From Synergistaceae bacterium (GTDB taxonomy: Bacteria > Synergistota > Synergistia > Synergistales > Aminobacteriaceae): 48,905 nt of DNA. Below are positions 41,524-42,981 of this stretch, piece by piece. Each line of letters starts with the position of its first letter. Within the stretch, counting starts at the first letter, position 1. Made by a program: the position numbers and the translations under genes. The notes beneath the pieces were generated by a model. It did no database searches. It was not told where the DNA came from and worked only from the letters and a program-made list of their open reading frames with translations. Location of the stretch: positions 1 to 48,905 of the forward strand of contig JAFSJJ010000023.1 of the NCBI GenBank assembly GCA_017439345.1. Direction: 5' to 3'.

Positions 41524-42981
41524 ATGCTTCAACACCTCAAGGACGAATCAAATTTAACACTAACAGAGAACAACGCATTAACTTATAAATCTTCAGGCTC
41601 GGAATGTCTTGACTTATTCGCAGTCTCAGGAGCTTTGAGAAATTCTGACTCTCAGGACATAACTACGCGTTTCATGAGGGCTTTTGCAGAGAATAAAGAC
41701 TTGGCCATGAAAATATTATTTTATTCGCGTGATATTCGAGAAGGTATCGGCGAACGAAAATTTTTCAGGGTCATAATTAAGTGGCTCGCTGTGAATTATC
41801 CTGACTCAGTGATAAAAAATATTGCGTTAATTCCAGAATACGGGCGGTATGATGACTTGCTTGAGTTAATTAATACTCCGTGCGAAAAATCTATGATAGA
41901 GCTAATAAAATCACAGCTTGAGGACGATATAAACTCTTCAACGCCTTCGTTATTAGCAAAGTGGCTGCCCTCGATTAATGCTTCGGATTCAAATACGAGA
42001 CTCAAGGCACGAACTATAGCTAAATTGCTTAATATGGACTACAAGACTTACAGAAAGACTCTGTCAGCTCTCAGGGCGAAAATAAATATCATCGAGAATA
42101 ATTTACGCGTTAAAGACTATACTTTTGATTACGAGAAACAGCCTTCACAAGCAATGCTTAAATATCGCAAAGCCTTCATCAGAAACGACAACGAAAGATA
42201 TTCGCAGTTTCTTGACTCAGTCTCTCAGGGCAAGGCAAAACTTCACACAGGGACTTTGACTCCATATGAAATAATTCTGCCGTTAGTGAGCTGGGGCAAA
42301 GCGCGTTTAACAGAGTCAGAACGCAAAGCACTTGATGCAACGTGGCAGGCTCTCGAAGACTTCACGAATAACGAGAATGCTTTAGTTGTAGTCGACGGCT
42401 CAGGCTCAATGTATCGGGCAGACGGCATAATTTCTCCGGCAAGTGCAGCTCTCTCGCTGGGAATATATTTCGCTGAACGCAACAAAGGCAAATTCGCAAA
42501 TCATTTTATAACGTTCTCAAGGACTCCGCAGTTAGTCGAGATCAAGGGAAGCGATATTTACGAGAAAGTTAATTACTGCAAGAGTTTTGATGAAGCAGCA
42601 AATACTAACCTACAAAAAGTCTTTGAATTAATCTTGAACACTGCAATAAAACATAACGTGCCTCAAGAGCAAATGCCCTCGAGCTTGTATATAATCTCTG
42701 ACATGGAATTTGACTCGTGTGTTGATAATTCAAACATGACAAATTTTGAACGCGCTAAAAAATTATTCGCCGAACACGGTTATAACCTGCCTCGTGTAAT
42801 ATTCTGGAACGTTGACAGCAGAAATCTTCAGCAGCCTGTAACTATGAACGAACAGGGAGTCTGTCTCGTCAGCGGTATATCTCCCCGAATCTTTGCGATG
42901 ATTAAGAGCCATGATTTAACGCCCTTGTCATTCATGATGAGCATTCTTGACAGTGATAGATACAAAAATATCACAGCCTGA
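41524..42981 (+). CDS. Ro-like protein: DUF2828/TROVE-type helical repeat plus vWA domain
   Basis: A 485-residue cytoplasmic protein. The N-terminal part (about 10-280) is all-helical and begins TENNALTYKSSGSECLDLFA, followed by SRDIREGIGERKFFR and LIPEYGRYDDLLEL. These are landmarks I associate with DUF2828, a family related to the TROVE repeat ring of Ro60. The C-terminal vWA-like domain has a complete metal site: DGSGS (291-295), Thr360 in AANTNLQ and Asp392 in IISDMEFD. Ro60 and bacterial Rsr bind Y RNA and misfolded RNAs through this ring and assist RNA decay or repair. Its position 80 nt after a tRNA-mimicking Y RNA supports an RNP. CAGGAGG precedes ATG 41524. No rtcB or pnp gene is adjacent. 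Confidence 0.82.
   Translation: MLQHLKDESNLTLTENNALTYKSSGSECLDLFAVSGALRNSDSQDITTRFMRAFAENKDLAMKILFYSRDIREGIGERKFFRVIIKWLAVNYPDSVIKNIALIPEYGRYDDLLELINTPCEKSMIELIKSQLEDDINSSTPSLLAKWLPSINASDSNTRLKARTIAKLLNMDYKTYRKTLSALRAKINIIENNLRVKDYTFDYEKQPSQAMLKYRKAFIRNDNERYSQFLDSVSQGKAKLHTGTLTPYEIILPLVSWGKARLTESERKALDATWQALEDFTNNENALVVVDGSGSMYRADGIISPASAALSLGIYFAERNKGKFANHFITFSRTPQLVEIKGSDIYEKVNYCKSFDEAANTNLQKVFELILNTAIKHNVPQEQMPSSLYIISDMEFDSCVDNSNMTNFERAKKLFAEHGYNLPRVIFWNVDSRNLQQPVTMNEQGVCLVSGISPRIFAMIKSHDLTPLSFMMSILDSDRYKNITA

Follow-up and report, generated by a model that had tools for sequence, protein, structure and literature searches.

The closest described relatives of the system considered here are the Ro60/Rsr-YrlA particles, represented by Xenopus Ro60 (1YVR/2I91), the Rsr protein of D. 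radiodurans (2NVO) and the rsr-yrlBA-rtcBA operon that S. Typhimurium carries according to PMC7790460. For bacteriophages, published work places TROVE proteins in a few jumbo phages (PMC7824862), mentions a Ro60-related phage protein (PMC7765460) and reports a Ro60-like fold in mycobacteriophages of clusters C and AF (PMC12363180). The sections of PMC12282133 that deal with CKA15_055 of Listeria phage CKA15 describe it as present in virions, with Rsr as its best HHpred match, and as encoded downstream of three very highly transcribed non-coding regions; its authors propose, without proof, that CKA15_055 belongs to Rsr and has Y RNAs. DUF2828 is never named in the paper, and no RNA signature is described in these sections. 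CKA15_055 proved to be a DUF2828 homologue of the gene analysed in this study. A full-text literature search for DUF2828 returned four papers, which judging by titles all concern plants, and PHROG 850, whose label covers DUF2828 members, is silent on RNA partners.

The gene studied here is carried on a 48,905-nt stretch of DNA from a Synergistaceae bacterium, referred to as the window. DUF2828 loci share with the Ro60/Rsr-YrlA systems a ring-plus-vWA fold (predicted in the case of DUF2828), a nearby non-coding RNA gene, a permuted T-arm/D-arm module in part of the RNAs and, in a good part of the bacterial loci, an rtcB gene. They differ in that the proteins lack the TROVE signature, and in that the RNAs have a short stem, ACAGCA and G, unlike the lower helix of YrlA, often occur as several units in tandem and show anticodon arms, whole tRNAs and tRNA-ended permuted forms. 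In the searches made, they were found mostly in Clostridia and phages. Unlike in the rsr-yrl-rtcBA repair operon, rtcB does not lie next to the DUF2828 gene at the window locus.

Protein family and predicted fold

The sequence-only reading had placed the 485-aa gene product in DUF2828 rather than TROVE, and Pfam agreed, with scores far above the cut-offs for DUF7788 (154.6 bits, cut-off 27.1) and DUF2828 (132.4 bits, cut-off 29) and no TROVE match listed at E≤10. The same picture was obtained for 22 diverse relatives, all of which matched PF11443, PF25043 and PHROG 850 ('RNA-binding protein'), whereas none matched PF05731 (TROVE) and only two gave a marginal vWA_Ro60 match. The vWA metal site (D291, S293, S295, T361 and D393) was invariant in 22/22 and 47/47 aligned sequences; the first three residues had been named correctly from the sequence, while the other two had been given one position too low (T360, D392). 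A sequence search of the PDB returned nothing with the single window protein and a best E of 0.14 with a profile, and PADLOC gave no match.

An AlphaFold2 model was computed from the window protein and 46 relatives taken from 140 eligible proteins (47 sequences), yielding a pLDDT of 91.5 and a pTM of 0.91. All 12 Foldseek matches of this model at E≤0.001 were Ro60/TROVE structures. In VIA-align, the model was superimposed on Xenopus Ro60 (2i91_A) with a Z of 23.3 over 416 aligned residues (rmsd 4.1, 12% identity) and on D. radiodurans Rsr with a Z of 13.6; the first non-Ro entry (Z 11.2) covered the vWA domain only. The protein is thus predicted, confidently over its whole length, to form a HEAT-like ring closed by a vWA domain, as in Ro60. 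Kinship to TROVE had been anticipated, but the word 'distantly' was too weak for a model that shows the Ro60 fold over most of its length. Membership in a Ro60-fold branch (DUF2828/DUF7788) separate from TROVE is the best explanation of the modelled structure together with the Pfam results.

RNA units at the window locus

The features of the locus are listed in Table 1. Units A and B share one layout: a 7-bp stem whose 5' strand leads, via a spacer of about 2 nt, into ACAGCA and a variable loop, and whose partner strand is followed by a G. The word ACAGCA occurs 40 times in the window (21 on the plus and 19 on the minus strand), but only two copies lie in the signature hairpin, both of them directly 5' of the DUF2828 gene.

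Table 1. Features of the DUF2828 locus in the window
Feature	Coordinates	Strand	Basis
TATAAT promoter-like box, extended TGn, 11 nt 5' of unit A	41312..41317	+	sequence, pattern search
Y-RNA-like unit A, AAAGCAC-TT-ACAGCA ... GTGCTTT-G, YrlA-like loop	41329..41429	+	hairpin scan, Rfam
T-arm-like hairpin in unit A, ACAGG-TTCGAAT-CCTGT	41368..41384	+	sequence, Rfam
D-arm-like hairpin in unit A, GCTC-AGAGGCA-GAGC, 3' of the T-arm (permuted order)	41396..41410	+	sequence, Rfam
Y-RNA-like unit B, AAAGGCGC-AT-ACAGCA ... GCGCCTT-G, enclosing a 5-bp hairpin (41467-41481)	41437..41497	+	hairpin scan
Shine-Dalgarno-like AGGAGG of the DUF2828 gene, shortly 3' of unit B	41507..41512	+	sequence
DUF2828+DUF7788 gene, 485 aa	41524..42981	+	ORF call, Pfam, alignments, predicted model
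tRNA-Thr(TGT), tRNA-Tyr(GTA), tRNA-Thr(GGT), 68 nt 3' of the DUF2828 gene	43050..43325	+	tRNA search

Rfam recognised YrlA (RF02553) at 41360-41416 with 26.3 bits, below the gathering score of 69. The match spans model positions 23-87 only, which correspond to the T/D part of unit A, where the T-arm precedes the D-arm as in YrlA. The lower, protein-binding helix of YrlA was not matched in the window, and the consensus of this helix in RF02553 does not contain ACAGCA. Of 14 control genomes, 13 likewise gave sub-threshold YrlA matches, as did ordinary tRNA clusters in the window's own genome, and the Rfam score alone was rejected as proof of a Y RNA. The claim that a YrlA-like RNA accompanies the gene nevertheless held up, and such an RNA is more than a chance match at this locus because the enclosing hairpin signature occurs twice in tandem. 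Compared with shuffled sequences, unit A folded no better (z -0.01), whereas unit B folded better (z -2.57).

A minus-strand ORF of 276 aa (40653-41483), listed from a TTG codon, would overlap unit A; it more probably starts, with a signal peptide, at an ATG near 41253 and then does not reach into the RNA region.

Conservation within the genus of the window

DUF2828 exceeded the cut-off in 25 of the 61 genomes searched, all of them within the window's own genus. The pattern TATAAT-N8-13-AAAGSNC-NNN-CAGCA gave 27 matches in 24 of 41 genomes, and the reversed pattern gave none. Among the 37 genus genomes included in both searches, it occurred in 22 of the 26 that have a DUF2828 match (counting G023, whose match is below the cut-off) and in none of the 11 others. 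A strict unit, as defined below, was present in 24 of 26 distinct genus loci after exclusion of duplicates (L002, L029-L031) and the sub-cut-off locus L028. A form filter removed six of 56 genus units; both a T-arm and a D-arm were detected by regular expression in five of 50.

As in the window, the DUF2828 gene stays near a tRNA-Tyr/tRNA-Thr pair in seven genus loci (L006-L008, L011, L016, L021 and L025). TROVE gave only partial matches in the genus (positions 272-364), in reading frames of 562-869 aa from eight of 41 genomes. Three such large proteins lie on one contig in G004 (compare L252 and L253); these proteins possibly represent another vWA family.

RNA signature across the family

Strict units were defined by a 7-bp stem, 0-3 nt, ACAGCA, a loop of 8-170 nt and the stem partner, and were searched for in 80 of 118 bacterial loci (mostly Clostridia), 80 of at least 598 viral contigs and a phage/plasmid set (L067-L089) composed of 20 of 682 matching phage records and three plasmid or unverified records. 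The viral contigs were identified with a 22-sequence alignment; the window protein as sole query gave no confirmed match in the viral contig search. The bacterial loci contained 144 units in 58 loci on the strand of the gene and 11 units in 10 loci on the other strand, with a mean of 7.6 units in 6.9 loci for permuted motifs. The corresponding numbers for the viral contigs were 151 units in 55, nine units in six and a mean of 10.5 units in 9.4. In 22 phage/plasmid loci, 43 units in 16 loci were found on the gene's strand and two on the other, while 59 permuted motifs averaged 2.8 units. Two permutations that overlap the real motif were omitted in the bacterial and viral scan and retained for the 22 phage/plasmid loci. 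Compared with the gene's strand, the opposite strand had 13 to 21 times fewer units, and permuted motifs gave about 14 to 19 times fewer. The survey of other DUF2828 genes proposed by the sequence-only reading did uncover YrlA-like RNAs next to them, in bacteria and phages alike. At 11 canonical TROVE loci, the ACAGCA hairpin was not enriched (one unit on each strand).

Four of 341 units lay inside genes and were dropped. The remaining 337 kept features that had not been part of the search, namely a G right after the maximal stem (297/337) and an A after ACAGCA (293/337), and their 7-nt arms comprised 168 distinct sequences. After exclusion of seven units with short loops, pairing between the 10 bases 3' of ACAGCA and the 10 bases 5' of the closing strand scored 3.32 within units versus 2.95 ± 0.054 for shuffled units. 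Because pairing is better within than between units, an inner helix probably flanks the ACAGCA bulge. Outside the genus, a TANNNT box just before the units was mildly enriched (113/337 versus 306/1,651).

In phage CKA15, units were located at about 25,290-25,555. The most strongly transcribed region (26,236-26,727; L089 1480-1971) was considered as a unit array and rejected on the basis of these coordinates; spanning about 500 nt, it appears to be non-coding, lacks the unit signature and may encode a different large structured RNA.

tRNA pieces and a permuted form

Sub-threshold YrlA scores were obtained for units of mycobacteriophage Snenia (39.3 bits) and Enterococcus phage 113 (34.4 to 47.8 bits), the upper value being the best among the relatives' units, against the threshold of 69. 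ARAGORN recognised a tRNA in normal order inside 19 of 341 units. Among the 318 units lacking an ARAGORN tRNA, 55 contained an anticodon-arm-type hairpin (7-nt CUnnnAA loop, at least 5 bp), compared with 17 of 6,740 windows of the same loci in which units and tRNAs were masked and 10 of 6,360 Markov shuffles; their frequency per unit is about 70 times that per background window. Their triplets included UUU (9), GUU (6), CAU (5), UCU (5), GCU (4), UGA (4) and others, and in the genus GUA (2), CUA (2) and UUC (1). By the tests applied, the 337 units split into 64 with a T-arm, 46 with an anticodon-type hairpin and no T-arm, and 227 with neither.

Some loci that apparently lack units, mainly those of one Lachnospiraceae group, carry a permuted form, a tRNA of ordinary order (acceptor, D-arm, T-arm, acceptor) in which the handle is inserted after the D-arm with its strand order reversed (closing strand, GNNA-like loop, opening strand, 1-4 nt, CAGCA). 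The scan for this form found 64 units, distributed over 38 loci; the other strand had none, and non-overlapping permutations of the motif gave 0-1; the motif-overlapping permutations ACAGC, GCAAC and CACAG gave 12, 4, 2 and 23, 3, 5 units. The loop comprised 4 nt in 47/64 units, started with G in 57/64 and ended with A in 39/64, and one unit folded with a z of -3.4. In three loci carrying these RNAs, ARAGORN reported none of them. The two forms resemble circular permutations of a single RNA, cut either within the GNNA loop or within the acceptor stem, and the permuted form would explain the G after the stem in the Y-ended form. Both forms together cover 72/80 bacterial, 66/80 viral and 17/23 phage/plasmid loci; by the criteria used, neither was found in 22/160 bacterial and viral loci and 6/23 phage/plasmid loci.

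Two tRNA-like Rfam matches of unusual length (107 and 123 nt), neither of them listed in the gene table consulted, immediately precede a TROVE gene on Picosynechococcus plasmid pAQ7 (L263 3690-3944) and may represent tRNA-ended Y RNAs of the TROVE branch.

rtcB neighbours

Thirty of the 80 bacterial DUF2828 loci and none of the 80 viral contigs gave a match to rtcB, in most cases immediately next to DUF2828; Pfam confirmed rtcB in two of the 30 bacterial loci and in L068. The gene is also found near DUF2828 in further loci (L067, L068, Listeria phages P100 and CKA15). On the window's contig, no rtcB was found, and the two rtcB genes of the genome lie on other contigs (C42 and C5). Within the genus, rtcB was not found beside the DUF2828 gene; it was present in 16 of 26 genomes with a DUF2828 gene (the other 10 gave no match) and in two of 11 without, a co-occurrence that is suggestive only. 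The observation that no rtcB accompanies the gene is thus correct for the window's contig and fails as a general trait. Since rtcB lies near the gene in 30/80 bacterial loci and in two Listeria phages, the partner enzyme may often match that of known Rsr operons, rather than being a different effector as had been considered possible.

Proposed particle and alternative explanations

Taken together, these analyses make it quite likely that the DUF2828 protein forms an RNP with the neighbouring RNAs. Nearly as likely, in our view, is the fuller statement that the Ro60-fold protein and the adjacent small RNAs form such a particle, as a second family of the Ro60/Y-RNA type, with tRNA surveillance or repair as the preferred reading of its role. 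The units would be processed into free RNAs. The constant part of each, a stem of 7-9 bp whose 5' strand bears ACAGCA on its inner side, is a putative protein-binding handle (stem/ACAGCA/G) that the ring would hold by analogy with Y RNAs. The variable loop would display a tRNA piece in about one third of the units, be it a T-arm, permuted T and D arms, an anticodon arm or a whole tRNA, and the displayed piece might serve tRNA-like clients as a gate or a competitor, or lure enzymes that act on or cleave tRNAs. RtcB would be a frequent repair partner. Surveillance or repair of tRNAs whose anticodon loop has been cleaved is suggested by the RtcB neighbours, the tRNA clusters, the anticodon arms and the presence in large lytic phages; this specific function is proposed tentatively, at somewhat less than an even chance, with decoy action as a close alternative.

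The hairpins could instead be cis-acting leader elements of the DUF2828 mRNA, through which, for example, the protein represses its own translation, rather than separate RNAs. In the window and its genus, the units are preceded by the promoter-like box and followed by the Shine-Dalgarno sequence, and the 500 nt upstream of DUF2828 contain most of the units found (87/144 bacterial, 75/151 viral), as expected of leaders. However, units also occur downstream of the gene (Staphylococcus, Klebsiella, Snenia, Felix-like phages), those of L067 and L068 precede rtcB instead of DUF2828, and some possess a complete acceptor stem and are tRNA-ended. A role restricted to the leader is accordingly unlikely, although leader and separate-RNA roles could coexist.

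An ordinary Ro60/YrlA system that has drifted past the HMM thresholds would account for the predicted fold, the YrlA-type permuted T/D-arm module and rtcB neighbours like those of rsr-yrlBA-rtcBA operons. Such drift is very improbable, given that PF05731 is missing from all 22 members whereas DUF2828 and DUF7788 are present in every one, that the ACAGCA hairpin is not enriched at the 11 TROVE loci, that the YrlA consensus lower stem is devoid of ACAGCA and that TROVE and DUF2828 occur in largely different phage groups. DUF2828 was found in 682 of the 50,697 phage records searched, including Listeria and Felix O1-like phages, and TROVE in 345 records; many gut Clostridia also carry DUF2828. The annotation 'Ro-like RNA binding protein' in mycobacteriophages covers two families, DUF2828 (Snenia-like, L075) and TROVE (Bixzunavirus, cluster C-type, L259).

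That the tRNA-like pieces are mere debris of tRNA genes, left by integration at such genes or by decay of phage tRNA arrays, is hardly credible: many DUF2828 loci do lie in or beside tRNA clusters, and T-arm fragments generally mark integration sites, but debris would not be expected to combine a sequence-variable outer stem (168 arms) with a fixed ACAGCA...G (G in 297/337), to be so much rarer on the other strand (13 to 21 times) and with permuted motifs, or to exceed the masked background in CUnnnAA hairpins about 70-fold.

Implications

With the RNP of DUF2828 protein and adjacent RNAs as the preferred reading, a domain of unknown function gains, besides a predicted fold, a candidate partner RNA and a role that can be tested. 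In its broadest form, which we regard as speculative and put a little below the repair function, the proposal is a second Ro60/Y-RNA superfamily. Here, one handle would present exchangeable tRNA parts, including anticodon arms (UUU, GUU, UCU, CAU, GCU, UGA, GUA and others), in two circular permutations that end at the handle or at the tRNA acceptor stem. In rtcB-carrying bacteria and lytic phages, the particles would serve to recognise, protect or repair tRNAs with a cleaved anticodon loop, or be decoys for anticodon nucleases. The phage distribution suggests that Ro60/Y-RNA particles may be commoner in phages than the TROVE family alone indicates. The RNA signature allows annotation where ARAGORN found nothing (three tRNA-ended loci) and Rfam remained sub-threshold, and the anticodon-arm mimics make a tRNA role of Y RNAs and Ro proteins directly testable.
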